A stretch of 64,000 nucleotides of DNA from Polytrichum commune (taxonomy: Eukaryota > Streptophyta > Polytrichopsida > Polytrichales > Polytrichaceae), in NCBI GenBank assembly GCA_950295325.1, contig OX485806.1, positions 36,892,001 to 36,956,000 of the forward strand. The letters are read 5' to 3'. Made by a program: the position numbers and the translations under genes. The notes below the pieces were generated by a model that was not told the DNA's origin, did not search any database, and was given only the letters and a program-made list of their open reading frames with translations. Shown one piece after another: positions 13,801-60,440 of this stretch (position 1 is the stretch's first letter; each line of letters starts with the position of its first letter).

Positions 13801-13816
13801 ATAACACCAACCTTGG

Positions 13817-30713: not shown

Positions 30714-31304
30714 CTGTGATTAACAATTCGACTAGTTTAATGCTATGATCCAATAAAGAATTTAGCAAACATGAAGATGCAGTATGGAAAAAGACGAAGG
30801 GCGAGAACAAGGGTACATTTGCGAACGATCGTTCGTGAAAGGCCAGCAGTGACCATGCGCACCATTCACGAACGTTCATTTGTGAATGAACCCTATAGTG
30901 CATTTACGAACGGGCGTTCGTGAAGGAGATGGTCGCGGGGTGGCATCCTTTTACGAGCGTCCGTTCGTGAACGAGGCATAAATGCACAACAGATTTGAAC
31001 CCGCATGAACATACACAAAACAACCAATGCGAGACGACGCGATTCGATGCAAAAAAATGTTTCATTTATATGAATTCCGTGAAAATTTACAATTTGTCTC
31101 AGATGATAATCTATCGTACAGGTTCCTAGGGCAACAAGATGCCATGTCCTACAAAACTGGTCGACCTGAGGAAGCACACAAAAATGGGCTATCGGAGGTC
31201 TCGGATGCCGATGTATACAACGCGCCAAAAACACAACGCATGTGGTTAGAGATGTTACGAACGCGCGTTCGTAAATGCATGCGGTAGTCTCAAAGATGAG
31301 TTAC
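30714..31304 (-). repeat. Intron C-D with five palindromes
   Basis: The intron begins GTAACTC and ends TTAATCACAG. Between them are palindromes of the ACGAACGNNCGTTCGT type at about 30821, 30867 (imperfect), 30905, 30954 (imperfect) and 31257. Copy 2 has four in the matching intron. Confidence 0.85.
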
Positions 31305-32747
31305 CTCGTCATCGGAGGGAGGGGCAGCGGCGCTGGATTGAGCGGCAGCTCCCTCCTCAGCGATTAACGAACGCGCGTTCGTCACATCCGCCGCCGCAGG
31401 TGCCTCAGTCTCCATTACGTCGTCAGCACGCGCCGCCTGAGACGTCTGGGTCTGCTGTATGTCGTCCTCCTCGCCACCCAGGTCGAGAGTCTCCATGTGC
31501 ACGTCCCCAATGCATGCGGGGGGATGTCGGTCTTCCGCAGGGCTGTCCTCGACGTCCATCCTCTGGACGCCTGCGGTGTCACTCGGGCTCCCCTGCGTGT
31601 CCTCCACAATGACCAAGTCAGTGTGTCGCGCAGTATCATCACCCCTTGTCCTATCTAGTAAACTGGGGACGACGGTGAAAGGTGCTGTGTCCGTCTGTGA
31701 AGGCAGTCCTACCCTTGGTGGGGGTGGGGTGAGGACTGTTGGACCTGAAGATTCACGAACGTGCGTTCGTAAATCCTCGTCCTCACGGATAGCCGCCGAG
31801 ATTGCGTCGTGTATGTTGGCGGTGTCCGTGGGCATTGTAGGGGGTGGAGGAGTCCCCACCGGCGTTGGGTGGGGCGCTGGCTGGTAGGAATGCCCTCCCG
31901 GGAAAGGACCGTGCATGGGGTATCCCGTAGGGAATGGGAATGCTGCCTGAGGGGCCACTGCAAAGTTCTGCAGCCTGGTCAGCATCGCCAGTATGGCGTC
32001 CGTCTTCTCGTTGGAGGACTTCAGCTCCTCCTCAATTTTTCTCATTTTCCGGGCATTCTCCTCTGCAGCCGCAGCCATGTCTTCCTTCATCTTCTGCTCG
32101 AGCTTTGCGTTAAGCTCGGCGACGGAAAGGGCCTCCTCCTTGACCCTCTTGTTCTTGTCGAACTCCACCCCAAGCTCGACCATAATGTCAATGTCCCCCT
32201 CGTCCTCGTCGGAGACCTCGATGATCGCCCCCTCGGGCAACTCCACGTACGGGGTCTTCTTCATCCTCCGTCGCGTGTTGCGGAACAGGTCCAACGTGGG
32301 ACGGGAGCGTTGGTCGAGGACATCGAGGGTCTCCATTTTCGGGACCGCCAGCCTTTGCTTGGGGGACACTGACGTCGAACAACCTCCTGGCGTGCCGAAG
32401 GGCTCCGCGCCTGAGGTAAGCGCGGGGAGGACATCCTGGGTGGCACCCGCCGAGGATCCAGTACATCCAGCCGGGGTCCCTTGGTATTCTGAAGGCTCCC
32501 CCGATGGGGCCAACAACCGGAGAGGAGTGACATCCAAAGCCTGGAGGATGGCATCGACGTTGACGGAGGGGCCAGGCTCGTCGTCGTCTGTTTCCATGGG
32601 CGGCATGCCTTCATCGGCCGGCATGTTGAAGTCCGTTCTGGGCACGGACATGTCAGCTAGGTCCATCGTCGACGCTTTTGTCCTGTGGAACTTGTAATCC
32701 TCCTCGTCGACGGCGTCAATATATGTGTTCACGCACAGCCCCAGCAT
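31305..32747 (-). CDS. Multidomain gene copy 1, exon C, acidic coiled-coil region
   Basis: The exon starts at the acceptor TTATCTCAG/ATGCTGGGG and ends GACGAG/GTAACTC, a canonical donor. Its first residues (MLGLCVNTYIDAVD) continue the methyltransferase-like motif that ends exon B. An acidic, Pro/Thr-rich stretch follows, then a conserved block (SVSPKQRLAVPKMETLDVLD, RRRMKKTPYVELP, EVSDEDEGD), and a likely coiled coil at about residues 199-262 (KEEALSVAELNAKLEQKMKE). The remainder is low-complexity, Pro- and Asp/Glu-rich. Two genomic palindromes fall inside the reading frame, at about 31364 (read NARS) and 31753 (read RTHVRES). Both are at the same places in copy 2. Exon length is 1443 nt; 1461 nt in copy 2. 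Confidence 0.75.
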
Positions 32748-32935
32748 CTGAGATAAGAAGGCAAAGATTCAGTCATTTACGAACGCGCGTTCGTAAACAT
32801 GAAGGCTTTGAGCGAGGAAATAATAAAAAAACAATTCACAAAACAATCATAAGTATCGGCTGCCCATGGTAAATTGTTTGGAGCATGCAGTGTTTACGAA
32901 CGAGCGTTCGTAAAAAGTGGTGTGAGATGGCTTAC
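32748..32935 (-). repeat. Intron B-C with one palindrome near each end
   Basis: GTAAGC donor and TTATCTCAG acceptor. One palindrome starts about 20 nt from the donor (ACGAACGAGCGTTCGT at 32895) and one lies about 30 nt from the acceptor (ACGAACGCGCGTTCGT at 32779). Copy 2 shows the same layout. Confidence 0.88.
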
Positions 32936-34261
32936 CATGGCCGCGTACATAAATTTGCTGCCTCCAAATACGTTGTAGACAGTCTCGCCAGTCATTGCCA
33001 AACCCTGCAATATGGAGACGTAGAACTCCATCCTCAGCTCCAGCGCCGGGAAGACAGTGTACAGAGTCTCCTGGAAGAGATCCTTTGGAGGTGGGTGAGG
33101 GATGCTGTATATCTTCTTGAATGTGTTGATCGCCTTTATGGGTGCTCGCCCATTCCTAAGCGCATTGTACGTCAAGAAGATGAGGCTCACCGCTCCCACC
33201 TGCCTGTTGCCTCTGGCCTCGTTTACGGCAACAATTCCCTCCGTCTTCGCTGGCACGTATGTGCTGTGGAAGATGTTGTACTCGAACTTGATCTTGTTCT
33301 CATACAAATCGATGACGACGGATTGCTTCTCCTGCTCCACAATCCACAGCCATACTTGGGGCTCCCTCATGGTCGGAGATTTGTGCTCCATGAATTTCGC
33401 CATGAAAGGGTTGTAAAAAGGCTCCCCCTTCGCGCCCTGTCGCGAGGCACCGGGTATCCCTCTGAAGTCGATGACCGCGAAGGGACAACCCCTTCGATCC
33501 TCCCTGACCTCGAACCTGCTGAAGGTGCCATCCCACTTGGAAAACGTGGTCCTCTCCAGCCCCGTGGTCACCACACAAAATCTTGCCACGCCCTCGAAGG
33601 TGGCGTTCCTCTTCCTCTCCAAGAAGGAGATGTACCGTTGAATCTCTTCAGGTTCCGTTTCTGTTTTTTTTGCTCTTTTGTTTCCCTTGAGCTTCAGGAC
33701 GGCGACGTGCTCCTTCACCAGGCTGCGCATTGAGGCACCGTTGATATTGTACAACGCCTTGAACTCCTTCCATTTCGCCCAGTTGATATCTTCGTCGGCC
33801 TGGAAAAGGTGCATCTCAGGCAATAGGCCGCTAATCTCCCGCATCGCAGCGGTCTTCAGCTTCCTGTGGTCGCACCACTCTTTGATCGAGTACGTGCCGG
33901 GCTTGTGCTTTGGTCTCTTCAAAAATATCTTGGGATAAGGGATGGTCCTTCCGACGGTGTTCCCAAGAACGTGAACCGCACATCGCTGCAGCTCTGATTC
34001 AGTCAGTCCTTGCAGGGCCCTAAAAAATTCCCGCAGTAGAGGCGGGGCCTCTCCGCTCTTCTCTTGAGCGTACTTCTCTTCTGTGTTTGGGTTCACCAGA
34101 TCGCCCGAGCTGTGAGCGTTGAAGAACTGGGTCCACAACTCCCAGGTGTCTCTGTTGCAGCAAATCAGACGGAGCTCACCTTTGAGCTCCAGAACTGATT
34201 TGGTGCTTGTGGACTTCATGTCGATGGAGGAGAATTTGTCCACCATCGCATCACAGAACGC
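32936..34261 (-). CDS. Multidomain gene copy 1, exon B, decayed N6/N4 methyltransferase-like
   Basis: The exon runs from the acceptor TATGTTGCAG to GCCATG/GTAAGC and encodes 442 residues. The C-terminal end GETVYNVFGGSKFMYAAM, joined to MLGLCV of exon C, resembles the SAM-binding D-x-F-x-G-x-G motif of permuted N6/N4 DNA methyltransferases. Upstream, PFAVIDFRGIPG (about residues 260-271), followed by VWLWIVEQE, sits where the catalytic DPPY-type motif would be. It reads DFRG instead, so catalysis is doubtful. No other fold is recognised in the N-terminal half, which carries a basic patch (KLKGNKRAKK). Copy 2 has an exon of identical 1326-nt length. The assignment rests on two short motifs and on the ParB-like neighbour, a combination common in bacterial phage-type methylases. 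Function remains unproven. Confidence 0.65.
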
Positions 34262-34384
34262 CTGCAACATACATACGAGGATGTCAGTGTTCAATACTAA
34301 ATACGAACGCGCGTTCGTAAGTTGGAAAATTTAGAAATTGTTTAATGCAACATATGCTTTACGAACGCTCGTTCGTAAACTCAC
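34262..34384 (-). repeat. Intron A-B with one palindrome near each end
   Basis: The donor GTGAGT is directly followed by TTTACGAACGAGCGTTCGTA (34359-34381), and a second palindrome (ACGAACGCGCGTTCGT at 34303) lies about 40 nt before the TTGCAG acceptor. Copy 2 has the same pair. Confidence 0.9.
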
Positions 34385-35680
34385 CTTCCACTGTGGAGAT
34401 TGCGTCTTGGCGTTCTCCTTCTCTTTTGGCGGGCATCCGTGCGCGACCCACACGTCTCTGGCCGCCACTATATTCGCCGCCCAGGAGGCCTCGAATGCCT
34501 TGATCTTGTTTCCGGAATTCAAAAATGTCGATATTTTGCGGAGCTTGTCCCAATCGTCAGACCAAACCAAAAACGCCTTCCAGTAGCGCAGGTCCGCCTT
34601 GAGCTCGTGCTGGAAGTTATCATCCTTTAGGATGATCTGTGACGCCTCTAGACTGTGTTGTCCATCGATTATCCAGAACTCTCCATTCTGGATTCTTGGC
34701 CAATCCTTCTCAGTGGGGCGTGACAAAAAACCCTTGGGCATCACGCAGACGGTCTGCCTATCCCACTTCACGTTGTTCATGAGGTTATTAATCTGCCACT
34801 TCACCCCTCCGCTTTCACGAGACCTCACCACCCACTTGTTAGGAGATTTCTCGCACTTGAAACAATCCACGTTGAAAGTGAAGTGGCGTCCCATAGGCCA
34901 GCAATCCTTGGAGTAGTTGTTGAAGTCTCGAAGGATTTTTGTCGCTTTGGCAGCGTCTGGGTTTTCTCCCTTCTTCAAAGGGGTTGGCATCACTGGCGGA
35001 GAACTAACCTCAGCGCCTTCCGTCAATCCGGACTTCTCCATCTCGTCCCTCGACCTCTTGGATGGAGTGGATTGTCTGCTGGGCCCTTCTGTCAACCTGC
35101 TCCCCGAAGGCACAGGCCGCGGAGCACTTCTCGATCCTCCTGCCCCCGAAGCAGCTGGTTTTTTCGGACTTTTCTTTTTTTTATTTGCCTCCGCGGCAAC
35201 ACTGTTGTACTTCGAAACATTCAAGGTCAGGGCAGTCAACTTCCTCGCCGTCCAGTGTTGACTCAGGGCATATTTGGTGAAGAGAGCATCCAGATTGAAA
35301 TGTTTCGCATCGGATGCGACATTATTGCATGCATAAGCATAAGAGAATGGGTGCAATAGGTAGTTTAAGAGGAGGTTCACATGGTCTTTTTTATTTTTCA
35401 TATCCAGAATAACAAAGTCTCCTTGTGCCTCTACGGATTCTATCTCCCAATTCTTTGTCTGCACCCATTGGTCTGGTTGGTCAGCCCTTGTCTGCAGCTC
35501 ATAAGTGAATTGCAATGCAAACAACCCTTCCTCGGTCTTCGTGGGGATGGTCGTCCACTCAGCCATGAATTCTTCTTTTGGGACATAGTTGTCGTTCCCA
35601 TTGGTATCCGAGACGCCCTCTGGAAGGCGCTCCACTGGCACTGCGAACAAGTCGATGGCGTTTCTGCTAGCTTTAGCCAT
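34385..35680 (-). CDS. Multidomain gene copy 1, exon A, ParB-like (DGQHS) domain
   Basis: The exon begins ATGGCTAAAGC straight after a GTGATGCAG acceptor, so the ATG may be the start codon preceded by an untranslated exon. It ends TGGAAG/GTGAGT, a textbook donor. It encodes 432 residues: a globular N-terminal region (1-160), a basic linker with a nuclear-localisation-like KKKKSPKKP (about 167-175) and Ser/Pro-rich sequence, and from about 255 a ParB/DGQHR-like domain. Its core is EFWIIDGQHSLEASQII (about 334-350), preceded by a conserved SPNKWVVRSRESGG. ParB-like domains bind DNA or hydrolyse nucleotides, and DGQHR proteins occur in phage and DNA-modification systems. Copy 2 has the same 1296-nt exon, and a relic is readable at 12.47-12.71 kb. 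Confidence 0.75.
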
Positions 35681-35699
35681 CTGCATCACACAAGAGCAA

Positions 35700-36200
35700 A
35701 TCAGAATTGCTTTTACGAACGTTCGTTCGTAAACAACACCGTGCCATGCATATTATTTTCATAGTGTGGTTTTTGGAAATACGAAGTTTTGAATGCTTTA
35801 TGCATTTCAGGGTGTTTCTAATGCATTCACATTGGTTCACATCTTTCACGAACGCGCGTTCGTAATATGAGATACCTGTTTATTAGTATTTTGTACATAA
35901 CTATACGAACGCGCGTTCGTAAAGTCATGCGATATTGTGGAACCTACTGAGTTAAATTTAGTGTTGTGATTGGATTTAAGTACTTATATGAATTACAGCA
36001 TGGATATATCCCTCCATTTTGGATTTAGAGTTTCGAACGCACGTTCGTAAACGTAGTCCTTGGGTTCCAAAGAATCTTTACGAACGCGCGTTCGTGAAAT
36101 GGTATATATTTTGCGCGGCCTATGCATTTACGAACGCGCATTCGTAAATGGGTGTATATTGTGCGCGGTAGAGGTATTTACGAACGCTCGTTCATAAATG
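35700..36200. repeat. Palindrome array 5' of the multidomain gene, copy 1
   Basis: Seven palindromes of the ACGAACGNNCGTTCGT type lie at about 35715, 35849, 35906, 36034, 36078, 36131 and 36181, with variable AT-rich spacers. The array lies between the exon A acceptor and the GC-rich leader at 36.9-37.1 kb, so it is probably inside a first intron. Confidence 0.88.
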
Positions 36201-36250
36201 AGCTTGTTGTTTGTTTTTATATATATAATTAATAATAACAATATAGTGTC

Positions 36251-36312
36251 CGTACATATACGAATTCGTATATATACGAATTCGTATATATATGAATTCG
36301 TATACATACGTA
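36251..36312. repeat. AT-rich palindrome triplet TATACGAATTCGTATA
   Basis: Three copies of the palindrome ATACGAATTCGTAT (one with ATG for ACG) stand next to the main array. At the matching place copy 2 has a TATACGTATACGTATA-type palindrome cluster (55568-55612). The class differs in sequence from the main palindrome but sits at a conserved site. Confidence 0.8.
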
Positions 36313-36894
36313 TGGCAAGGTCTTGCTTGCTGTGTCTCAGCAAAGCTTGCACTTGTGCCTGCAAGTGTTCGTCAGAAAGGTGAGATTGAAGAAAAACAAT
36401 ACAATCAAAACATATAGACTTGGAATGTGACAGAGAATTCAGAACGAGGATCCGAACTTGACTTCCAAAACACATGGCATTCAATAATGAACAAATATAG
36501 ACTGTGAAGGATTTGAGAAGGGAAGGAATATTGTGCTTACTCTGAAATTTTACACACCCAAAAGCTGCTTGCTCCTTTGTTGAAAACCCCAGGAAACCCC
36601 ACAAAAGCAAGGTGATTTGAAAGTCAAATGCACCACTGCACCACTGAAATTGCCTTCACACTAGTTGTTGCATGCTATGTACGAACCCTAACTAAGACTC
36701 TGATGTATATGCAATTTCAAATGCAGTATTTCTCAAGCTGCTACTCTAAAACTTGCAATTATCAAGCTTATAGCTTGAGTATCCTAATCTTAAGCTTCCA
36801 ACTCTCAAGCTTTAAACTCTACAAACTTTCAACTCTCCAACTTTCAACTCTTCTAACTCGAGTTCTCTATTCTTGAGCTGCAACTCTCAAGGGA

Positions 36895-37215
36895 CTGTCA
36901 ATAACTCTCAACACTTGCGCCTACAAAAGAAGTGCACCACACAAAACTAAAAAATGCAAGAGCTTCGCCTCTAAACTCTAAACCAACGCGGCGCTCCTCC
37001 TCTCTCTGCTCCAAATGAGAATGAGGAAGGAGAGGAGGGGGCGCGGGGAGGTAGCCCGCGCCTCTAGGGTTTTCCCTCGGGCTGCCACATGGCCGCTTCC
37101 CATTGGGGAGGGAAGGGATGGGTCGGGCTAGGAAGATGAGGGGATGGGATGGGGAGATAGCATGGGGTGTGGGATGGGTGGATGGGGGGGATGGGGGGGA
37201 TGGGTTGGAATTCAT
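36895..37215 (-). promoter_or_regulatory. Putative leader/promoter of the multidomain gene, copy 1
   Basis: A GC-rich island in AT-rich DNA contains, on the minus strand, AAACCCTAGAGG, a telo-box-like motif typical of plant leaders, and a Pro-coding GGGGAT-type low-complexity block upstream. Copy 2 has the matching island (56270-56500) with AAACCCTAG and a G-box core CCACGTGG where copy 1 has CCACATGG. The position suggests transcription start for the minus-strand gene. The Pro-rich ORF through it is likely non-coding. Confidence 0.4.
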
Positions 37216-37365
37216 TGGGGTTTAGTAATTCAATGTAATCAAAGCACATAAATATATTCAATGTGACTTAATAAAGTGATTTGCATGGGGGGCACTAACC
37301 GATTTGACATAAATCTATGTCATCACAATAAGAAATGCAACTATATATTACACCATTTGCACTTA

Positions 37366-37905
37366 GTTTGAGACTTTCCCAACTCTCTAATTAACGAAAA
37401 TAATCTAAGTTGGATGTATAAGCAATAAAGGCACGTTAATTTCAAGCTTTTTAATATGTATATGCCTCCATCACATAAACATAAGGAGTCCAGTACAAAA
37501 CATGCATTTTAAATGCTACATCCCCTTCATCTACTTTGGATTCATTGTAAACATCTTCTAGATAAGGAGTATGAATTCAATTTCCACATTGCACATCATG
37601 TACTAGGGATTCGATGAAAACCCTACCCCCAACGATGTGTATTAATATGGTGTTTTCAAATATATAGTGTTCTCATAATTGAAATATCTTTCAAGTTTTT
37701 AAATGGTTCCTCAAATAATTTAATATAAGATCCATAAAGGTCCCGATTTAAGATTGGTGGGAACGGTTTAGGATTTTCTTACAAGAGGTGCGGGAAAATT
37801 CAATTTCAAATACTAGGCTTTCAATTCAGTTTATTATGTGTGAACTTGAACTACTGCATTAAATTTATTATTATATTTGTTAATCCGAGACTTTGGAAAG
37901 TCTCA
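37366..37905. repeat. Two internal sequences resembling the element's right-end TIR
   Basis: At 37380 TTGAGACTTTCCCAACTCTC is followed by TAATTAACGAAAATA, like the right end. At 37870 TTAATCCGAGACTTTGGAAA continues to GTCTCAAAATA, the same in inverted orientation. Both resemble the right-end block at 44760-44797. They face away from each other and bracket about 470 bp. Copy 2 appears to lack them. Confidence 0.6.
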
Positions 37906-38246
37906 AAATAAATGCAAATGATTTAATATGTGGTTCAAATTCTTATTCGGATGAGATGTATTTGTGCCAAATTGGTTAGTGTTGCCCATACAAATCGCTT
38001 TATTGTGTCACATTGAATGTATTCTTGTGTTTTACTTGTTCTTTATTTGAATACCATGTTCTGAAATAGTATCCAAAATCATGAAAATGTCCCCAATTAC
38101 AGAATATGGTGATCGTTGAAAGTTTGGCTCGCATCAAATGTAAGCTACAAATAAATTAAGTTAGTGCAATATGGATTTATGAGTAGTGAATATAGTTTGT
38201 ATGTAAACCCTGTTATATGAACTACTGGACATGCACATCCCTCACA

Positions 38247-38275
38247 AACCCTAAACCCTAAACCCTAAACCCCTA
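38247..38275. repeat. Interstitial telomere-type repeat (CCCTAAA)n
   Basis: Three to four CCCTAAA units, the plant-type telomere repeat, lie in the AT-rich centre of copy 1. Copy 2 has a shorter relative (ACCCCAAACCCTAACCCTAC) at about 57538-57562. Confidence 0.85.
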
Positions 38276-38629
38276 GTTTTTTTTACCATCCGCACTATAT
38301 GGGGGAATGTTGTGATCCAACCTAATAGTGTTGAGTGCATTTTAATTACACAATGCATAAGTGGGACTCCATATAGGTATGGTTTCAATTCATATCATTA
38401 CACTATCTTATGCACCATTCCAAATTAATTCAACATTTCCACACAATGTTGAATCAATTCACTATTTGCAAACCTGGAGTTGCATTTGAATTAAGATATA
38501 AAGTATATCTAGGCATGGTTTGAATTCATCTCCTTAATCTACCTTAGTAGCTTGCATGAATTCACCAGACTTTTTATTGGTGTTCATGCACTTGGTGAGT
38601 ATTTGCCGCAATAATATACATAAATGTAA

Positions 38630-38832
38630 TGTAGATACATGTAATGTATATATATGTAAAGTATAGATATGTAAAGTATAGATATATGTAAGAAACATAT
38701 ATATATAGATATATAGATATATATTCACACATATATATAGGTATATAGATATATATTCACATATATATATAGGTATATAGATATATATTCACATATATAG
38801 ATATATATAGATATATATTTACATATATACAA

Positions 38833-38867
<35 letters not shown>

Positions 38868-38905
38868 TAAGTAAATATATACATCGATATGTATATAGGA
38901 ATATA
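38630..38905. repeat. AT-rich microsatellite with ~30-bp higher-order unit
   Basis: TATAGATATATATTCACATA recurs at about 30-bp steps (38706, 38746, 38776 and so on), ending in a pure (AT)n run near 38838-38864. Confidence 0.85.
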
Positions 38906-39039
38906 CATTTTATTTTTTGGTTCGGGAAACCTTGGTAACACCTAAGGTGTGGAACGGATGAACATATTATCAATGCGTGCATGCCATACATATTCAATAC
39001 AGAAAGTTATTTATGTCCCGCATGAATAGAATGGCATAT

Positions 39040-39278
39040 TGTTAGGTTAAAGTAGGCGGCGGGAATCCGCTTTTCAAAGAGAATCCAAGGGATTTTGAAC
39101 CACGGTAGAGGAGTACTTAAAGCTCTCCCCCCCATTGCAGAGCTTTTTTTTGCGGGAGACACCAAGTGTGCGCTCCAGACACCCGACGGAGGGCGCTCGA
39201 GCCAGTTTCCTGTGCGTGAACCGTACACTCATAGGTGGCAGACAACCTTATCCCGCAAATACCGCCGCAAATACCGGG
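39040..39278 (+). promoter_or_regulatory. Conserved block upstream of the transposase, copy 1
   Basis: This GC-richer block is strongly conserved with 58650-58895 in copy 2 (AAAGTAGGCGGCGGGAATCC, AAGGGATTTTGAACCA, GTACTTAAAGCTCT, CCAAGTGTGCGCTCC, ACCGCCGCAAATACCGG) although the flanks diverge. It lies just before the palindrome array and the plus-strand gene. I infer a promoter and leader; TACTTAAAGC is a weak TATA-like candidate. Confidence 0.5.
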
Positions 39279-40130
39279 GGTTTACGAACGCGCGTTCGTA
39301 AACCTGCAGTGCGCGCATGTGTTTGTGGATGAGATATATCGAGGTTGGTTGGATGTTTACGAACGTGCGTTCGTAAATACCGCCTTGGCGTATATTTTAC
39401 ATCCATAAATGTATAGACCCAGATACGATTATGCATAGGCACAGACAATATGAAAGTCATATACGAACGAGCGTTCATAAATGTACATTTTGAGCATCCG
39501 AAGAACATTGGGAATGTGCAAGAGTTTACGAACGCGCGTTCGTAAATATTGAATGCGCGTAAACGGTGTATGGTACATACTGAAATGACATTAGAGTTTA
39601 CGAATGTGCGTTCGTAAGTGACACCGCTTATTTTCAGAATCCATATACTCATGGATATAAGGGGTATGAAGATGTACATACAATACGATAGTAATTTGCA
39701 AACAGAAGGTCGAAAATATCAATGATTTCAGCAGATATACATAAGATGAGCGAGAGTTTACGAACGTGCGTTCGTGATTTCCACCTGGGAGTATGTCGAT
39801 GCATACATCACGCCTCCCTGGGCACGCACACAAATATATATGTATTTACAACAAAATATTAGACATAAATACGAACGTGCGTTCGAATTCATTCAGGGAA
39901 TGTATCTGGACATTGACTGCGGGATGTGGGAAAATGCTCCATTTGCTCCACATACACATAGTATGGGCGAGGGATGTGTATTTGGGGCACATGGAATAAT
40001 ACATTCATATGCGTCAATGACTCTCGGAAGTTTTGTGTAGGCATATAACAGGTATCCCTACACAATTGAAACGGTCCATGTTTTAGTTGACATACAGAAT
40101 GACGGGGAACATTCGAATGCCCGTTCGTAT
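39279..40130. repeat. Palindrome array 5' of the transposase gene, copy 1
   Basis: Eight sites of the ACGAACGNNCGTTCGT type or near variants occur at about 39284, 39360, 39464, 39527, 39600, 39759, 39872 and 40111 (the last two degraded). Spacers differ in length and sequence. The gene body begins at 40296 behind an ATTAG acceptor, so the array probably lies in a leader intron. Confidence 0.87.
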
Positions 40131-40295
40131 ATATGCCCAACTCAAACAGAAGCGTGTCTGCATGCAGACGATCGTTCTGTTATTCCCACTGTGACTTGTG
40201 CTCTATTGTGACTTAGGTTTACTAAAATCTTGTCGTATTTGTGATTGACTTATATATGTTGTGATTCCATGTTCGCGTCATTAGGTGGGTTTGCG

Positions 40296-45958: not shown

Positions 45959-45993
<35 letters not shown>

Positions 45994-48278: not shown

Positions 48279-48430
48279 CTGCGAAACAACGTCATAGGAA
48301 GATAAGAATAGGAATGGAGTGGGGAAAATAATGAGGGCGGTTTGGGATGGGCGCTCGTAAAGAGAACGGCACGCAAACGGAAGACAAGGGAAGCAAAAGC
48401 GGGAAAGGGGTTTAGGGTTGAGGAGGGCAC

Positions 48431-48955: not shown

Positions 48956-48963
48956 CTATGGTC

Positions 48964-49020
48964 AACAACAATCACAACAACAATCACAACAACAATCACA
49001 ACAACAATCACAACAACAAA
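48964..49020. repeat. CAACAACAATCA microsatellite in intron D-E
   Basis: Four to five 12-bp units. Copy 1 has a shorter AACAACAAT tract at 29840-29872. Confidence 0.85.
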
Positions 49021-49139
49021 AGACATCCAAAAACGAAGCAAGCATTAGTAAATGTGAACCACTTGATACAAAGCAAAGACATGGAGGCATTTCAAATCAA
49101 TTTATTGAGTTTGGCGAGCCTCATGATGCTCTTGAATAC

Positions 49140-50420: not shown

Positions 50421-51881
50421 CTCGTCATCGGGGGGAGGGGCAGCGGCGCTGGACCGAGCAGTTCCCTCCTCTTCGATTAACGAACGCGCGTTCGTAATCC
50501 CCATTGGGCCAGCCGCCTCTGTCTCCATGGCGTCTGTGGCACGCTCCGACTGTGACGCCTGGGTCTGCACAATGTGATCCGCGTCGTCGTCGTCATCTCC
50601 GCCCAGGTCGAGAGTGTCCATGCGGACATCCTCCATCTCCGCGGATGGATGCCGTTCCAGGTCAGGGCTCTCAACGTCCATTCCTTGGACAGCTGCCGTG
50701 TCATTGGGGTTCCCCTGCGTTTCCTCCACAATGACCATGTCAGTGTGTTGCGCAGATTCATCGCCCTGCCTATGCACTACCCTCGGGACGACTGTCAAAG
50801 AGGCGGTGGCAGTGACTGAGGCCAGTCCTACCCTTGGAGGGGGAGGGGTTAGGACTGCCGGACCTGAAGATTCACGAACGCGCGTTCGTAAATCTTCGTC
50901 CTCGCGTATGGCAGCCCTTATCGCATCGTCCGAGTTGAAGGGGGTGGCAGTCAATTGAAGGGGCGGAGGACTCCCAGCTGGCGTTGGGTGTGGTGCTGGT
51001 GGGTGCGAAGGTCCTCCGGGGAACAGGCCTGGAAGGGGGGTATGGGAGGGGTATCCTCCAGGGAAGGGGTAAGGCTGTTGTGCTGGCGCCGAGAAGCTCT
51101 GCATATTTTTGAGCATCTCAAATATGGCGTCCGTCTTTGCTGCGGACTCCCGCAGCGCCTCCTGCATGCGGGCCATATTTCTTGCACTCTCCTCTGCCGC
51201 AGCCGCCATTTCCTCCTTCATTTTTTGCTCTAGCTTGGCATTCAGCTCGGCAACCGTCAACGCCTCCTCCTTCACACGCTTGTTCTTGTCGTAATCCACC
51301 CCTAGCTCCGCCATGATGTCCATGTCCCCTTCGTCCTCGTCGGACACCTCGATGATTGCTCCCTCCGGCAACTCCACGTATGGCGTCTTCTTCATCCTCC
51401 TCCTCGTGTTCCGGAAGTGGTCCAAGGATGGACGCGAGCGTTGGTCGAGGAGGTCGAGGGTCTCCATCCTCGGAACCACGACGGGCCTGGGAGACACTGA
51501 CGTCGAACAGCCGCCAGGTGTGCCGAAGGGTTCCGCACCCGACACTCTAGCGGGAAGGACATCCTGGGTTGTCCCAGCCGAGGATCCTGTATAGCCCCCC
51601 GGTGTCCCTTGGGGGTCAGACGGGTGACCCGCTGGCGCCAACATCCGTAAAGGAGTGATGTTGAACGACTGCAAGATGGCGTCCACGTCCACGTCCACGG
51701 AGGGGGCGGGCTCGTCCTCGTCTGTCTCCAAGCCCGGCATGCCTTCGTCGACGGGCATGCTGAAGTCCTCCCTGGGGACACACATGTCATCGAGGTCCAT
51801 TGTGGACGCTTTCACCCTGTGGACCTGGTATTCATCCTCGTCTTGGGCGTCAACGTAGTTATTGACGACCAACCCCAGCAT
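50421..51881 (-). CDS. Multidomain gene copy 2, exon C, acidic coiled-coil region
   Basis: It starts at GGTACAG/ATGCTGGGG and ends GATGACGAG/GTAACTC. The reading frame is open throughout (1461 nt). It has the same order as copy 1: MLGLVVNNYVDAQD continuing the methyltransferase-like motif, an acidic stretch, PRMETLDLLDQRSRPSLDHF, a basic block with TPYVELPEGAIIEVSDEDEG, a coiled coil (KEEALTVAELNAKLEQKMKE), then Pro/Gly- and Asp/Glu-rich sequence. Palindromes lie in frame at 50480-50499 (NARS) and 50873-50892 (RTRVRES), the same positions as in copy 1. Confidence 0.75.
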
Positions 51882-52048
51882 CTGTACCAACGTTCCAAAC
51901 ATGTCAGCATATACGAACGTGCGTTCGTAAACATCAACATTGAGACAAGGCCAGATCAACGCAAAGGGAAAAATGCCACAACTATTATAACATTTGAATC
52001 AATGACAATTACGAACGAGCGTTCGTAAATCTAAGAATGACAGCTTAC
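51882..52048 (-). repeat. Intron B-C with one palindrome near each end, copy 2
   Basis: ACGAACGAGCGTTCGT at about 52012 near the GTAAGC donor and ACGAACGTGCGTTCGT at about 51914 near the TTGGTACAG acceptor, matching the copy 1 layout. Confidence 0.88.
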
Positions 52049-53374
52049 CATGGCCGCGTACATGAACTTGCTGCCTCCAAAGATGTTGTAGACAGTCTCT
52101 CCACTGATTGCCAAACTCTGCAACACTGACACGTAGAACTCCAACCTGAGCTCCAACGCGGGGAAAACCGTGTACAGTGTCTCCTGCAACAGTTCCTTGG
52201 GAGGGGGGTGAGGGATGCTGTATATCTTCTTGAAAGTACTGTTTGCCTTCACAGGCGCTCTCCCATTTCTGAGAGCATTGTACGTTAAGAAGATCAAGCT
52301 GACAGCTCCCACCTGCTTGTTGCCCCTGGCCTCGTTGATGGCCACGATCCCTTCCGTTTTTGCGGGCACGTAGGTGCTGTGGTAGATGCTGTATTCAAAT
52401 TTGATGGTATTTTCGTACAGCTCAGTGACAATGGATAGCTTCTCCTGTTCCACTATCCAAAGCCATACGTGAGGCTCCCTCATTTCAGGCGATCTGTAGT
52501 CTTGAAACTTTGCCATGAAAGGGTTGTAGAAGGGAAAATCCTTTGCCCCTTGCCTCGCACCTCCTGGGATCCCCCTGAAATCAATCAGGGCAAATGGGCA
52601 ACCCCTGCGGTCCTCCCTCACCTCGGCCCTGCTGATGGTGCCGTCCCACTTAGAAAAAGTGGTCCTCTCCAGCCCGGTGGTTACCAAACAAAACCTGGCC
52701 ACTCCCTCGAATGTGGCCCTCCGCTTCCTCTCCAAAAACTTTATATACAACTCCACCTCCTGGGGATCTGTCTCTGCTTTCTTGGTCCGCTTGTTCCCCT
52801 TCAGCTTCAAGATGGAGGCGTGTTCCTTAACTAGCCTACGCATGGAAGAGCCGTTGATGTTATACCCGACCTTGAACTCCTTCCATCCAGCCCAGTTGAT
52901 GTCCCCGTCGGCCTGGAAGAGTTTGTACTCCGGGACTAGTGCGCCCAACTCCCTCATTGCGTTGGTCTTCAACTTGCGATGTTCGCACCACTCCTTGATG
53001 GAGTACGTTCCGGGCCTGTGCTTTGGCCTCTTCAAAAAAATCTTCGGGTAGGGGATTGTTCTCCCGACGGTGTTCCCAAGAGCATGAACTGCACATCTCT
53101 GCAATTCCGACTCCGTCAACCCCTGAAGCGGCCTAAAAAATTCCCTCAGCAGCGGAGGCGCTTCCCCAGTCTTCTCCTGATTATATTTTTCTTCAGTGTC
53201 GGGGTTGACGAGATCCCCCGCACTGTGAGCATCAAAAAATTGGGTCCACAAATCCCAGGTGTCTCTGTTGCAACAAATAAGCCGGAGCTCACCCTTCAGC
53301 TCGAGCACTGACTTCGTTGAAGTGGACTTCATGTCGATGGAAGAGAATTTGTCCACCATCGCATCGCAAAACGC
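52049..53374 (-). CDS. Multidomain gene copy 2, exon B, decayed N6/N4 methyltransferase-like
   Basis: Open over the same 1326 nt as copy 1, with conserved acceptor (CAG/GCGTTTTGCG) and donor (GCCATG/GTAAGC). It keeps ALIDFRGIPGG in the place of a DPPY motif, VWLWIVEQE downstream, and GETVYNIFGGSKFMYAAM at the end, continuing into MLGL of the next exon. Because both copies and the relic at 13.6 kb share these residues, the departures from the canonical motifs are inherited family features. Basic patches (KLKGNKRTKKAE) may bind DNA. Confidence 0.65.
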
Positions 53375-53490
53375 CTGCATTAGAAAGGAATGTCATTGGT
53401 CAATCAAATACGAACGCACGTTCGTAAATAAAATGATCAGGAATGTTCTAAAGGAACCTGAGAATTACGAACGCTCGTTCGTAAACTTAC
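53375..53490 (-). repeat. Intron A-B with one palindrome near each end, copy 2
   Basis: The GTAAGT donor is followed at once by TTTACGAACGAGCGTTCGTA (to about 53464); the second, ACGAACGCACGTTCGT, is at about 53410 before the acceptor. Confidence 0.9.
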
Positions 53491-54786
53491 CTTCCATTGT
53501 GGAGACTGGTTTTTCGCATTCTCCCTCTCCTTTGGTGGGCACCCGTGTGCCACCCACACGTCTCTCGCAGCCACTATGTTTGCTGCCCATGATGCCTCAA
53601 ACGCTTTGATCTTATTCCCAGAATTTAAAGATGTCGAAATTTTCCGGAGTTTGTCCCAGTCGTCTGACCACACCAGGAACGCCTTCCAGTAGCGCAGGTC
53701 CCCCTTCAGCTCATGCTGGAAGTTATCATCCTTGAGGATGATCTGCGATGCCTCCAGGCTGTGCTGTCCATCAATAATCCAGAACTCTCCATTCTGGATT
53801 CTTGCCCAATCTTTCTCCGTGGGACGGGAAGTGAAACCCTTTGGCATAACGCACACAGTTTGCCTATCCCACTTCACGTTATTCATCAAGTTGTTGATTT
53901 GCCACTTCACACCTCCGCTTTCACGTGACCTCACCACCCACTTGTTGGGGGATTTCTCGCATTTGAAGTAGTCCACGTTGAAGGTGAAGTGCCGTCCCAT
54001 GGGCCAGCAATCCTTCGAGTAATTGTTGAAGTCGCGAAGGATACGAGTCGCCTTTGCCGCATCAGGGTTTTCTCCCTTCTTCAAAGGGGTCGGCATGACA
54101 GGCGGCGAGTTGACCTCAGCTGTCTCCGTGACACCAGACTTCTCCATATCGTCCCGAGTTCTTTTAGATGGCGTGGAGTGTCTGCTTGGCCCCTCTGACA
54201 ATCTGCTAGCTGAAGGCACTGGCCGCGGCGCACTTCTAGAACCTCCTGCTCCGGATGCAGTAGGTTTTTTGGGACTCTTCTTCTTCTTGTTGGCCTCCAC
54301 GACGGCACTGTTATACTTGGACATATTTAGGGCCAGTGCAGTCAACTTCCTGGCTGTCCAATGCTGGCTGAGGCTGTACTTCGTGAAAAGGTTCACGAGG
54401 TCGAAATGCTTGGCATCCTCTACAACATTATTCTGTGCGTATGTATGGGAGAAAGGGTGCCTCCTGAAGTCCAGCAGGAGGTTGATGTGGTCTTTTTTGT
54501 TTTTCAAATCCAAGATAACAAAATCACCCTGTGCCTCTATGGATTCTATCTCCCATGTCTTCATCTGCACCCACTGCTCCGGCTGGTCTGGCCTTGTCTC
54601 CAACTCGTATGTGAATCTCAGGGCGAACAATCCACCCTCGATTTTCTCCGGGAGCGCCGTCCACTCCCCCATGAAGTCATCTTTGGGGACGTAATTATCG
54701 TTCCCATTGTCATCTGTCACTGACTCCGGAAGCCGATCCAACTGAACCGTGAACATTTCGATTGCGCTCCTGACTGGTCTAGCCAT
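53491..54786 (-). CDS. Multidomain gene copy 2, exon A, ParB-like (DGQHS) domain
   Basis: Exactly 1296 nt as in copy 1, from CAG/ATGGCTAGACC to TGGAAG/GTAAGT. It has the same architecture: N-terminal globular region, NLS-like KKKKSPKKP, Ser/Pro linker, then SPNKWVVRSRESGG and EFWIIDGQHSLEASQII. The linker differs most between copies, while the ParB-like block is nearly unchanged, a pattern suggesting selection on the domain. The upstream CAG again suggests a leader exon before the ATG. Confidence 0.75.
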
Positions 54787-54814
54787 CTGCAATGTAACAG
54801 ACACATTCAGAATT

Positions 54815-55530
54815 GCATTTACGAACGCGCGTTCGTTACTGGCATTTGCAGGTCGTCAATAAATTATTTATTATTGGCAAGACATCTGTTGGTTCTTGTT
54901 TACGAACGTTCGTTCGCAAATTTGGTTTGATTTCCAAGGTGTTATTCATTTTCAATAAATACGAACACGCGGTCGTATTTGAGTGCTGTGATGTTCATAT
55001 GGCGTAATCAAAAGGTGTAGGGTTCGTTTTTATTTTCATTTTTTGGGTTCATTTTTATTAGTTTTTGGGTACACATATTTGTGTCCATGCCTTTGTGTAG
55101 ATTTACGAACGCGCGTTCGCAAATCTTGGGTGTGTTTGGATCCCTGTTTACGAACGATCATTCGTAAATCTAGGATATTGATGTGATTCAGTGTTTGTTC
55201 ACGAACGGACGTTCGCAAATACAAGATGTTCCTTATTTAATCAATTACGAACGCACGTTCGTAAAAGTAGAAGGTGAGCGCGTATTTTACGAACGCACGT
55301 TCGGAAAATTAGAAGGTGAGTGGGTATTTTACGAACGCACGTTCGTAAAGGTGGAAAGTGAGTGGGTATTTTACGAACGCACGTTCGTAAAGGTAGAAGG
55401 TGAGTGGGTATTTTACGAACGCACGTTCGTAAAAGTAGAAGGTGAGTGCGTATTTTACGAACGTGCGTTCGTAAAAGTAAAGGGCTTGGTGTATTAGATG
55501 TATAAACGCCACATTTACGAACGATCGTTC
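54815..55530. repeat. Palindrome array 5' of the multidomain gene, copy 2
   Basis: About thirteen palindromes from 54822 to 55534, some with one-base changes in an arm (for example ACGAACACGCGGTCGT at 54962). Six of them form the regular 42-bp tandem array at 55245-55496. Confidence 0.9.
55245..55496. repeat. 42-bp tandem array, one palindrome per unit
   Basis: TTACGAACGCACGTTCGTAA starts at 55245, 55287, 55329, 55371, 55413 and 55455, six units at exactly 42 bp. The spacer is close to AAGTAGAAGGTGAGTGGGTA. Because 42 is divisible by three, an ORF with a 14-residue repeat appears on each strand; I regard these as artefacts. Confidence 0.95.
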
Positions 55531-55562
55531 GTAAATGTGGTCGTCTGTGTATGATAATAAAT

Positions 55563-55612
55563 GCTTTCCGTATATATACGTATACGTATACATACGTATA
55601 CGTATGTATGGG
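55563..55612. repeat. AT-rich palindrome cluster, copy 2
   Basis: TATACGTATACGTATA and neighbours stand where copy 1 has its TATACGAATTCGTATA triplet. Confidence 0.8.
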
Positions 55613-56029
55613 TTTATGAATGTTGCTATCGACATTGCTTGGATTTCTGCCTGCAACTCTTGATCAGAATGATGAAACACAAAGTGAAATATGTAATGAC
55701 AACAACATTGAGATTCAGTGATTAAGAATTCATAATGAAGGGGAAAGTCCTAATTCATACAAAACATGACAAAGCTCATAATGCATAAAACATGACACAT
55801 GGAATTCAACAAAGAACAATTTCAGATTGCAAAGAAGTGTTTTGAAAAGGAAACCTGTACTCACATTGAATTGTTGCAAACCCAAAACCTGCTGCCTGCT
55901 ACTCAGAAATCCAGAAACCTCACAAATGCATTGATTTCGCTTTCAAATGCAATTTCTACCCTCGCTCATTTCTCACACTCTCAAGCCTTCAGAATTTATT
56001 TACAAATCCTACAAATATTCTGATGTAAA

Positions 56030-56230
56030 CACAACTCACAAGCTTTCTGAAACTCTCAAGCTCTCAAGCTTTTTGCAACACTCAACCTCTCAAGCTTTCT
56101 AAAACTCTAAACCTCTCAAGCTTTCCAAAACTCTAAACCTCTCAAGCTTTCCAAAACTCTCAACCTTCTCAAGATTTCTACAAATATCAACCTCTCAAGC
56201 GATCCTACTCTCAAGTTTCTGACAATGCGC
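56030..56230. repeat. CTCTCAAGCTTTC(C/T)NAAA degenerate tandem repeat
   Basis: Units of about 25 bp such as CCTCTCAAGCTTTCCAAAAC recur five or more times. Copy 1 has a looser relative at 36760-36890. Confidence 0.8.
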
Positions 56231-56264
56231 GCCAAGAATAAACATAAAATGCGGCTATACAAAT

Positions 56265-56500
56265 GGCCAGGGCTTCGCCACACCTAAGCTCTCCCCTCCT
56301 CCTCTGCTCCAAATGACAAATGAGGAGAGGAAGAGGCGCGGGGAGGTAGCCGGCACCGCTAGGGTTTCCTGGCGGCTGCCACGTGGCTGACAGCCACTGG
56401 CCAGGGCTGGGATGGGGGAGGGGATGGGGATGCGGATGGGGATGGGGATGGGGATGGATGGGAGGGGAATGGGGATAGGGAGGGATGAGGGTTTACGAAT
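56265..56500 (-). promoter_or_regulatory. Putative leader/promoter of the multidomain gene, copy 2
   Basis: A GC-rich island with AAACCCTAG on the minus strand, a G-box core (GCCACGTGGC at about 56377), and upstream GGGGAT repeats. It is equivalent to 36895-37215 in copy 1. Assigned by position and motif only. Confidence 0.4.
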
Positions 56501-56639
56501 TAAGAAATACGAAATGGTGGGAGCTTAGTTCGGGGACATGAATTTTACATTCCGTATCCCCTGAATACCTCTACAGTTGGATTCCTTGTAAACATATTTT
56601 AGAAAAGTATGTTCAGTTAATTTGTACAACACAATGCAT

Positions 56640-56870
56640 GTCATTTAGTAGGTTTTCGATGAAGAATCCACCCCAATGTGTGTATGGTGTTTTGCAAAAT
56701 AGAGTTTTCATGAACCACACATCCTTAAAGTTGTTCAATGGTTCCTCAGACAAATTTTACATACATAAAGGACGCATTTTGAATTGTGGAGAGGGGCTAT
56801 CAGATTCTCCTCAAGAGGTGGGGGAAAATTCATTTTTCAATACGATGTCATTAATTTCATGAGGTGTTAG
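56640..56870. repeat. ~230-bp block repeated at 57728-57955 and in copy 1 at 37610-37830
   Basis: Shared order: CGATGAA(G/A)AATCCACC or equivalent, GTGTGTATGGTGTTTT, TTCAATGGTTCCT, then AAGAGGTGGGGGAAAATTCA. Copy 2 has two versions flanking the Harbinger-like MITE region, and copy 1 has one. Confidence 0.7.
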
Positions 56871-56935
56871 CTTGACCCACCCTTAATATGATATTTAGTA
56901 TTAGATACTCTAAATACGAACGCATAGTACACTAA

Positions 56936-57462
56936 GGGCCTGTTTAGACTTGGGGCCAAGGCCATTGTGAACGAAGGCCAATATGCCCCATGTGGCATGC
57001 AAATGGGCCCCAAAGGCCATTAATAAGAAAGTAACCTAACTCCATTCATTGCTTTCATGTGTAAACCTATTTAGGTGGGGTTGGGGCCATTTGGAGGTTG
57101 CAATTATGAGAGGGTTATGAGAGGTTCCAACGTACTCATGAACTATTCTATGGATAATAATTAAAGTATAATAAATTTAGAATTTCTCCCCTCCTACTCA
57201 ATGCTCAAAGAATAAACTACTATAAGCGAATAAAAGCTCTAACAATGGCCTCAACAAGAGGGAAAAAGTCCACAATGTTGGGAGCTCTCTTTTCCAAGGC
57301 TTGAGGCCATTGTCATGATGAATAAAATAATTTATTTGTGATTGGCCCCAACTCATGGTGTAAACTTGAAGAGGAAAATCCTAGCCTTTCTACCAATGAG
57401 AGGCGTGGATTTCTTTCACCCCAACCCATTTTTGAGCCTTGACTCCAAGTCTAAACCCGTCC
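56936..57462. mobile_element. PIF/Harbinger-like MITE (527 bp) with TAA TSD
   Basis: The left end GGGCCTGTTTAGACTTGGGG and the inverted right end GGACGGGTTTAGACTTGGAG are matched over about 30 bp. The flanks are TAA on both sides (56933-56935, 57463-57465). The GGGCCTGTTT start and three-base TAA target are typical of Tourist/Harbinger MITEs. It has no coding capacity and is absent from copy 1. Confidence 0.9.
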
Positions 57463-57727
57463 TAAGTATCACTAACGATCTAAACCCTAAGCCCGCAAAC
57501 CACATATTAGACAACTTTCACAAACCATATACACTAACCCCAAACCCCAAACCCTAACCCTACATCTTTTTATCTTACCAACCCTTTTTAGGAGGTCAAG
57601 TCATTTAATTAGTTGTCGACTTGAACTAACAAACGAATACTAGTGCCATCAACTTTAAATTTCACCAATGATCAATTGCATTTAAACTTATAGTTCATAA
57701 TATGGTCCGATGTTTGGCGAGCCTCAA

Positions 57728-57955
57728 GTGTAGGGGGTGGATTCAAATGAAAAATCCACCCGCAAGCATGTGTATATGGTGTTTTAAAATATAATTTTTT
57801 CATGGACAATATGTCTTTCAAGGTGTTCAATGGTTCCTTAAAAAAAATTATTGGATAAAGGACTCAATTTCATATTGTGGCGAGCCTGCGCTATCCTAAA
57901 CCTTTACAAAAGGTGGAGGAAATTCTATTTCTCATAGGACGTCAAACACATGATA
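57728..57955. repeat. Second version of the ~230-bp block
   Basis: GTGTATATGGTGTTTTAAAA, GTTCAATGGTTCCTTAAAA and AAAGGTGGAGGAAATTCTAT follow the order of 56640-56870. Confidence 0.7.
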
Positions 57956-58644
57956 TTAATAATTGTAAGTGTGACTTCACGTAGGCATGGTTTCAATTCT
58001 TATCATTATCGTATGCACCGTTCCAAAGTGATTTATCATTTCCAATCATGCCATTTTAATTCATTATTTTCAAACCTAGTGTTACATTTGAATGAAGACC
58101 TTACCTACATATATTGGGTATGATTACTTCAAAATGTCCTCAATTTACCTAGTACAAACCATTATGGATTAAGCGACTTTTTATTGGTATTCATGCAGTT
58201 GGTGACCATATTACGGGCATTTTTTTTATGTGAATCATATGATACCTACAATTTTAGGGGCTTCCACAACATGTTTTTAGCTACTCTTACCTCATTGTGT
58301 GTGTGAATATGTATTACCCTAAACCCTTCATCACTTTATTAGGTATAATCAATCGTCAATTAACTTGGACTTCACACCTTAGTTGCAAATCATTTAAATT
58401 CAATGTTAACCATAAACCTATATAGACATTATAAATCTAATATTATATATATGTGTATATATAATATAATATAATATAATATACAATATGAAATTCATAT
58501 ATACATATAAATATAGACATATATTCACATGAGACCTTGGTGACAATTAAGGTGTGCGACCGATTGACATATTTACAATATGTTGCGTGCATGCAAGACA
58601 TGTTCCATACATAATGCTATTTATTTATTCCGCATGGATGGAAT

Positions 58645-58895
58645 GGCATATTGTTAGGTCAAAGTAGGCGGCGGGAATCCGCTTTTTAAATAGCATCCAA
58701 GGGATTTTGAACCATCAGGGGGGAGGTACTTAAAGCTCTTCCCCCCACATCAGAGCTCTTTTCTGCGGCACAACCAAGTGTGCGCTCCACAGACCTGACT
58801 GGAACGAGCACAAACCATTTTCTTGTGCGCCCACCCTATACCTCCCAGGTACACAATAGGTTGCACATACCCGCATATACCGCCGCAAATACCGG
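58645..58895 (+). promoter_or_regulatory. Conserved block upstream of the transposase, copy 2
   Basis: Closely matches 39040-39278 of copy 1 while the surrounding AT-rich centre diverges, which suggests functional constraint. Assigned as promoter and leader by position. Confidence 0.5.
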
Positions 58896-60440
58896 ACTTT
58901 TACGAACGCACGTTCGTAAAGATGATTTGGTAGCGACATGTGATGCGAGTGGTTTAGACATGTAGTTTAGACGAGTGGTATAGACGAGTGGTTCAGACAT
59001 GTGATGCGAGTGGTTTACGAACGTGCGTTCGTAAGTAGAGCATTAGACATACCCAGCGTAGATTTACTTACAGGTAGTCACAGGCACAAAATGTTCAATT
59101 ATATACGAACGTGCGTTCGTATATATTTCCTTCCAGATACAGGTACACGTAAGTTGTTGTGATGCGAGTGGTTTACGAACGTGCGTTCGTAAGTAGAGCA
59201 TTGGACATACTCAGCGTAGATTTACTTACAGGTAGTCATAGGCATGAAAATGTTCAATTATATACGAACGTGCGTTCGTATATATTTCCTTCCAGATACA
59301 GGCGCACGTAAGTTGTTGTGATGCGAGTGGTTTACGAACGTGCGTTTGTAAGTAGAGCATTGGACATACTCAGCGTAGATTTACTTACAGGTAGTCATAG
59401 GCATGAAAATGTTCAATTATATACGAACGTGCGTTCGTATATATTTCCTTCCAGATACAGGTGCACGTAAGTTGTTGTGATGCGAGTGGTTTACGAACGT
59501 GCGTTCGTAAGTAGAGCATTGGACATACTCAGCGTAGATTTACTTACAGGTAGTCATAGGCATGAAAATGTTCAATTATATACGAACGTGCGTTCGTATA
59601 TATTTCCTTCCAGATACAGGCGCACGTAAGTTGTTGTGATGCGAGTGGTTTACGAACGTGCGTTCGTAAGTAGAGCATTCGATAATACTCCACGTTGACC
59701 TACTTATAGGTAGTCGTGGACGCTAAAATGTTCAATGATATACGAACGTGCGTTCGTTTATTTTCCTCCTAACCCTCAAAGACACCTACGCTCCCGTGAC
59801 TCTGTTATGTCCAACTGAACATATGATGGTCTGGTATTCACGAACGTGCGTTCATAAATATCAATTGATATTATTTTGCAATTATACAGAAACATCCGTT
59901 CATTTATGCATATGCCTCCTACTACTACGCTATAAATGTTTCTTCTGATGGGTCAACATTTTTACAAACACGGTTAGGGCTAGAACACATGATTGATCGT
60001 TCGTATGCATACGCCCATATGTTTCGGCCAGGACTTACGAACGATCGTTCGTATACATATACCCTTGAGTTTAGGCTCTACCTTGGGTTCGGTCGTTCCT
60101 AGATACACACCCGTCAAAGACATGCCCTTCAATTACGATGCTTGTTGCATGTGGATAATGATGCAAGTGCATTTTAGGTGCTCCTGAGCAATGCACGTTG
60201 CTTATCCCTTTTACAATTCATTGTTTGTTGGGTTGATGTTCTCGTCCGCGCGTTCGTGAATATATGTGCGTATGCTCTCCTTTGTTGGTTGGCAACACTT
60301 CCCATGCTTTATTAGCAAATCGACCCAAAACCCTTCACGGTTAATATGTACCACAATTGCATGCCGTTGTCCATTGGTGTGTGACTCCCACGTAGTATTT
60401 GCTTGTCATGGCGTTGTTTTCGAACGCACGTTCGTCTTCA
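58896..60440. repeat. Palindrome array 5' of the transposase gene, copy 2
   Basis: About sixteen palindromes between 58901 and 60433, including the ~159-bp tandem array. Most have the ACGAACGTGCGTTCGT core; two at about 60000 and 60040 carry GATC centres. Confidence 0.9.
59013..59765. repeat. ~159-bp tandem array, two palindromes per unit
   Basis: GTTTACGAACGTGCGTTCGT starts at 59013, 59171, 59330, 59489 and 59648. Each unit also holds a second palindrome in ATATACGAACGTGCG context about 90 bp on, and the phrases GTAGAGCATT(G/A)GACATAC and TTCCTTCCAGATACAGG. About 4.7 units are present. Confidence 0.95.

Follow-up and report, generated by a model that had tools for sequence, protein, structure and literature searches.

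Why would a transposon carry dozens of copies of one short palindrome, and which protein would bind them? This question is raised by a stretch of the genome of the moss Polytrichum commune (64,000 nucleotides of contig OX485806.1, hereafter the window), in which the palindrome ACGAACGNNCGTTCGT recurs throughout two copies of a large transposon. The element has 13-bp terminal repeats and 4-bp target duplications and carries two divergent genes on opposite strands. One encodes a DUF7869 protein (PF25273, E 9.9e-40 on the second open stretch of the copy 2 gene, 62146-63714), which is probably the transposase; the other, made of exons C, B and A, encodes a protein with ParB-like and methyltransferase-like folds, and a NIF-like phosphatase exon may be the last exon of this C-B-A gene or a separate gene. 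Judging from the sequence, we lean towards the view that the palindromes are binding sites of a dimeric, sequence-specific factor that the element supplies, and that this factor is most likely the C-B-A product.

The palindrome within the window and across the genome

In the window, ACGAACGNNCGTTCGT occurs in 43 exact copies and in none of 100 dinucleotide shuffles; over the 14 arm positions, a further 18 sites have one mismatch, four have two and seven have three. The more than 60 copies counted by an earlier, sequence-only reading are reached when one mismatch is allowed (61 sites, between 30821 and 60435), and every one of these lies within copy 1 or copy 2, in line with the confinement which that reading had claimed. 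One of the 61, at 48692, lacks the TTT/AAA flank and is possibly a chance match, and a site with two mismatches at 29575 lies in copy 1 but outside the 30821..60440 range of that reading. The decayed sites that it had reported in a relic of the element are there, with three mismatches each (13642 and 14796), among exon fragments that are 37-65% identical (tblastn). Other palindromes with 7-bp arms around two free bases (NN) are far rarer in the window: two from an AT microsatellite reach 10 and 9 copies, and the next only two.

The full site is a 22-bp symmetric motif, TTTACGAACGNNCGTTCGTAAA, built from the 197 sites with at most one mismatch in the window and four fetched regions. At each of three outer flank positions T has a frequency of 0.82-0.88, which bears out the TTT...AAA context described earlier, and the inner arm positions are 98-99% fixed per position within the lineage. 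The centre, previously called free, is nearly so, as 13 of the 16 dinucleotides occur among 149 exact sites, but it is biased towards C (0.28 bit). The sequence-only reading had taken conserved arms and free centres as expected of a dimeric protein site or a mobile palindrome, and not of simple inheritance; this holds in part, as the arms are indeed kept and the centres vary, as for a dimeric protein site, but the positions of the sites are inherited, as described below. CpG decay was considered as the cause of lost sites and rejected: of the 72 arm mismatches, C-to-T and G-to-A changes make up 30, which is no excess, since 8 of the 14 arm positions lie in CpG.

Counted genome-wide (408 Mb, 64 contigs), as the same reading had proposed, the palindrome occurs 5602 times; reversing the pattern gives another palindrome, which occurs four times, and this backward control is used throughout. 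Each search listed no more than 100 places and scored 87-92 proteins; the 100 places listed for the palindrome are clustered and all lie on C1, none beyond 2.47 Mb. The 264.8 kb of fetched DNA, most of it chosen for its sites, yielded 146 sites when up to one mismatch was allowed, and their clusters coincide with element sequence. Seven 10-kb control stretches, chosen by round coordinates, contained none; these stretches are CpG-depleted (observed/expected 0.35-0.60).

In copy 2, site clusters stand upstream of both divergent genes, each with a tandem array (units of 42 and 159 bp), and the sites are multiplied by tandem duplication. No exact site of this copy lies within 2.4 kb of one end or within about 4 kb of the opposite end; the one-mismatch site at 48692 is nearer. 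Copies were compared by anchoring, in which the best 16-mer between matched flanks is taken, a procedure that favours finding sites and from which the two tandem arrays were excluded. Ten of the 18 copy 2 sites were anchored in copy 1, where eight have no arm mismatch, one has one and one has two; in all, 3 of 140 arm positions are off the word at a local flank identity of 67-89%, and the centre differs at six of the ten. In two further copies, M1 and M2448, the anchored sites numbered 14 and nine, with zero, one and two mismatches in eight, five and one of them for M1 and in five, one and one for M2448, where the remaining two are lost. The two coding sites of exon A have no mismatch in any of the three copies compared. 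A column test with masked sites had found the arms no better conserved than the flanks (135/154 against 1609/1781 for M1; 30/42 against 383/499 for copy 1), but gap placement in the masked stretch was judged faulty and the test was replaced by anchoring. Since site positions are inherited and the arms are kept at anchored sites, we read the arms as held by selection.

A non-autonomous copy of 9.5 kb (C1:639070-648560) has no transposase or C-B-A matches and only a NIF fragment. It retains 40 sites with at most one mismatch, both ends and the duplication CATA, a single case that fits sites acting in cis.

Words of related lineages

Many homologues of exons C and B extend into the intron, and 45 of the 77 tails that do so can encode a palindrome centred on CG-NN-CG, against 4.4 expected after shuffling. 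The word ACGGACG-NN-CGTCCGT (ACGGACGNNCGTCCGT), predicted from metagenome tails before the search, was found 1394 times in the genome and once backward. It belongs to group II, the window word being that of group I. A group II piece, whose exons C and B are 45% and 54% identical to those of copy 2, carries seven exact ACGGACG words, distributed over the two introns and the region upstream of exon C. Of the first six ACGGACG clusters on C1, five have a group II exon C within 12 kb. The other sites of the piece are two hybrids of group I and group II arms, one site with a single mismatch and one group I word. The hybrid or one-mismatch palindromes, in which an arm of group I is combined with one of group II, stand at L036:10, L036:3388 and L036:3589, and the hybrids are possible intermediates in a change of word.

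A third lineage, group III, is more distant, with an exon C that is 23% identical over residues 22-235. Its element contains 10 exact copies of TTTGGGTCG-NN-CGACCCAAA, and TTGGGTCGNNCGACCCAA occurs 10011 times in the genome against none backward; this word, TTGGGTCG-NN-CGACCCAA, was searched only once fetched DNA had already shown the 10 exact copies. A single scored exon C relative (621458-622807) falls in the stretch of C1 covered by the listed sites, and it is flanked by two clusters of the group III word.

A further word, ACGGCCG (ACGGCCGNNCGGCCGT), was written down before its search and gave 27 occurrences against two backward. Sixteen of its 22 loci have, within 4 kb, one of the 22 exon C copies that score low in group II, and none has any of the other 70 within 10 kb; the threshold of 614 bits that splits group II was chosen after the list was seen. 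In 2000 controls with shifted positions, in which the length of C7 was assumed, the mean was 0.025 and the maximum 2.

The words do not mix among the elements of groups I and III that were counted. Six group I elements hold 16, 27, 17, 27, 26 and 33 exact copies of their own word and none of the other three, and the group III element has its 10 and none of the others. The palindromes of the lineages are of one design, with arms ending in CG, two free bases and CG. The terminal 13 bp, in turn, do not differ between the NIF-side ends of group I and two places whose position assigns them to group III; the same end with different words indicates that the word is separate from the end-binding function.

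Candidate binders of the palindrome

Taking into consideration that the site is: (i) symmetric, with arms kept and centre free, (ii) private to a lineage, and (iii) changed symmetrically between lineages, it has the features that a DNA-binding protein, dimeric and co-evolving with its site, would be expected to leave. The strongest candidate is the C-B-A product, because known relatives of both of its folds bind DNA. The exon C model matches the ParB-CTPase fold and the exon B model that of beta-class DNA N6A/N4C methyltransferases, the latter similarity being by fold only. The canonical motifs are GxxR for the ParB nucleotide motif, and DPPY/W and FxGxG for the methyltransferase. DGQHS or DGQHT stands at the place of GxxR in 18 aligned exon C sequences, and DFR replaces DPPY/W in 21 of 21 aligned exon B sequences, which have FGG, then S/T/C/A, then K where FxGxG is expected, a correspondence that is our reading. 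With DPPY/W and GxxR replaced in this way, the protein seems more likely to bind than to transfer methyl groups or to use the standard CTP switch. No family for exon B or C scored above the cut-off in Pfam, NCBIfam or PHROGs; below it were weak hints of DUF6551 (E 0.024, P0019), which we take to be kin of ParB, and of a ParB-like phrog (E 0.068, P0029). A sequence search of solved structures gave nothing useful. Viral contigs were tried as a source of exon C relatives, and none of their 19 pattern matches was related to exon C.

Several observations weigh against a self-encoded binder of this kind. Model confidence is middling (mean pLDDT 72 for exon B and 69 for exon C), Foldseek with the two models gave no match at E 0.001 or better, and no helix-turn-helix was identified in the exon C model, which is poor outside two domains. 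The group II piece carries one group I word besides its hybrid palindromes, and two of nine anchored sites are missing in M2448. In nearly all of the 16 ACGGCCG loci the word stands equally far from exon C; they are therefore largely one inherited site, and their count overstates the association. The tail-predicted words TTGGGCCG, TTCGGTCG and TCGGGCG had 0, 0 and 1 sites in the genome; the source lineage of TCGGGCG is absent from it, the best copies there being 68-72% identical to the source protein.

Other binders have to be weighed on the same evidence. Host transcription factors recruited to the element promoters might bind the sites, since such recruitment by elements is common and the clusters flank both divergent genes; yet within one genome and one element the words differ by lineage, and sites, while missing from the seven control stretches, also occur within introns and the coding exon A, which makes host factors an unlikely answer. 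The DUF7869 protein might use the palindromes as internal transposition sites: many transposases, such as Spm TnpA, bind repeated internal motifs, and the non-autonomous copy has kept its sites. It is a poor candidate, however, because the ends are common to groups I and III while the words differ, and because the exact sites of copy 2 lie far from the ends (again with 48692 nearer), and we regard its binding as quite improbable.

The palindromes might also act without a DNA-binding protein. The arms could pair and several sites are intronic, which would fit RNA hairpins in introns and transcripts, but a hairpin would tolerate compensatory change, whereas the arm word is nearly fixed in the lineage; with clusters upstream of both genes and only two unpaired central bases, hairpins are the explanation to which we give least credence. 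A functionless mobile or satellite-like repeat, spread by insertion or slippage, would account for the 42- and 159-bp tandem arrays and for the thousands of copies. Diverged copies nevertheless share site positions with arms held against drift, two coding sites are unmutated in three copies and control DNA has no sites, so that such a repeat is very unlikely.

If the element does encode its own binder, the C-B-A protein, perhaps joined to the NIF phosphatase, would dimerise on the site, and dozens of occupied sites per copy would mark the element as self. Occupancy could keep the two divergent genes expressed, through anti-silencing or autoregulation, and divergence of the word would stop lineages from helping each other. 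The sites would then work much as VANC motifs or parS do. Protection from silencing is suggested by analogy with the distribution of VANC motifs, to which we return below.

An unrelated element of about 15 kb (C1:2246925-2261925) is nested in group I copy M1, inserted about 44 bp from its end, and also bears a palindrome, AGGCCTCGGATCCGAGGCCT, in 35 copies with at most one mismatch (32 exact). The 16-bp core of this palindrome, GCCTCGGNNCCGAGGC, occurs 2261 times in the genome against none backward, although the array in the element may be plain tandem repetition. Its open reading frame (ORF) has 195 homologues, and most of 16 aligned relatives contain the motif EGNHR(L/V)TAW, for which its own copy reads GNHC; the GNHR motif, a motif of ParB proteins, is the single feature that suggests a ParB-like product. 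We tentatively propose, at less than even chances, that giant eukaryotic transposons use ParB-fold proteins and private palindromes for a self-recognition that protects these copies against silencing by the host, with at least two unrelated types in this genome, the DUF7869 family and the nested element.

The element among other features and known systems

Table 1. Coordinates of the two copies, the relic, their exons and their site clusters in the window.
Feature	Position	Strand	Basis or remark
Copy 1	28461..44800	-	C-B-A-NIF gene on minus strand, DUF7869 gene on plus; alignment with copy 2, ends, flanks
Copy 1 ends	AATACTATATTCG / CGAATATAGTGTT		Duplication AAAT at 28457-28460 and 44801-44804
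Copy 1 sites, NIF exon to region upstream of exon C	30821..36195	.	
Copy 1 sites upstream of DUF7869 gene	39284..40128	.	
Copy 2	47569..64000, ends just beyond window	-	Alignment with copy 1, ends, flanks
Copy 2 left duplication CTTT	47565-47568		Matched beyond right end
Copy 2 NIF-like phosphatase exon	49092..49859	-	PF03031 E 3.1e-16; acceptor read from translation
Copy 2 A/NIF intron, four palindromes	49976..50389	.	49976 with one mismatch
Copy 2 exon A	50421..51881	-	Low-complexity, coiled-coil-like; coding palindromes 50480, 50874; end read from translation
Copy 2 B/A intron, two palindromes	51913..52026	.	
Copy 2 exon B	52049..53374	-	DNA-methyltransferase-like domain without DPPY/W; splice sites, fold, alignment
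Copy 2 C/B intron, two palindromes	53410..53482	.	
Copy 2 exon C	53491..54786	-	ParB-like domain in C-terminal half; splice sites, fold
Copy 2 sites upstream of exon C	54821..55532	.	Including 42-bp tandem array
Copy 2 sites upstream of DUF7869 gene	58902..60435	.	Including 159-bp tandem array
Copy 2 DUF7869 gene	60558..63714	+	Open stretches 60558-62063 and 62146-63714
Decayed relic	12408..15445	+	tblastn fragments; two 3-mismatch palindromes

Elsewhere in the window, a C-rich microsatellite of CCGTTCCC/CCGTCCGC units lies between copies 1 and 2 (45836-46858), a 188-bp repeat stands in three tandem copies at 3671-4234, and a 228-nt inverted repeat, 87% complementary, has its arms 13.3 kb apart (6336-6563 and 19888-20115). 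By eye, a reading frame at 9674-10924 has an AP2/ERF-like domain, which points to a plant host, and a fragment at 22811-23308 resembles a pogo/Tigger-type transposase. The palindromes CTTCCAT-NN-ATGGAAG (41715) and GCTGTCC-NN-GGACAGC (42191) occur once each in the window and repeatedly in fetched stretches; perhaps they belong to another repeat inserted in copy 1.

Among known systems, ParB/parS, Noc and KorB of bacteria and plasmids share with the moss element the ParB-CTPase fold and short palindromic sites, several per replicon. Here, however, the carriers are eukaryotic transposons with dozens of sites per copy, no helix-turn-helix was identified and DGQHS stands in place of GxxR. Mutator-like elements make duplications of 9-10 bp and Sola1 elements of 4 bp; the three copies with duplications here have 4 bp (AAAT, CTTT, CATA), as in Sola, with a DUF7869 protein as the probable transposase. 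Four-base-pair target duplications are also described for Sola2 in the available part of PMC3627910.

The accessible text of PMC12477816 describes a giant element of Ectocarpus, Sola1-1_Ec32, with an accessory gene for a ParB-like and N4C/N6A methyltransferase protein on the strand opposite the transposase, and proposes that such accessory genes of algal transposons bind their own element; in phages, ParB domains are fused to N6_N4 methyltransferases, according to the part of PMC12704722 at hand. The moss element is likewise large, with its ParB-like and methyltransferase-like gene on the strand opposite the probable transposase, but the methyltransferase similarity is by fold only, the motif has degenerated and the gene is followed by a NIF exon. 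A word search for palindromes in the accessible text of PMC12477816 gave 0, and among open-licence papers no report of palindromic sites was found; the protein type is already known from algal transposons.

Site distribution has a parallel in the VANDAL transposons of Arabidopsis, with their VANC anti-silencing proteins and the motifs that belong to these, as far as described in the available sections of PMC5735166 and PMC10398659. There, too, a short motif is nearly private to one family, is concentrated in introns and upstream regions, has been multiplied by tandem repetition and differs between related families (PMC5735166, in part). The moss palindromes are similarly private to their element, lie in noncoding DNA apart from two coding sites, and form tandem arrays. 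The same sections describe the VANC motifs as 9-bp non-palindromic words in one orientation within Mutator-like elements, and report binding and demethylation as demonstrated, whereas in the moss element the words are palindromic around a free centre, the target duplications measure 4 bp, and the candidate binder is an unrelated protein whose folds resemble those of ParB and of methyltransferases. After VANC, the element gives a second system in which to ask how transposons could escape silencing without activating rivals. With thousands of candidate sites and different words in one genome, the specificity of protein for word can be tested by swapping, and the proteins form a possible set of palindrome binders for tools.

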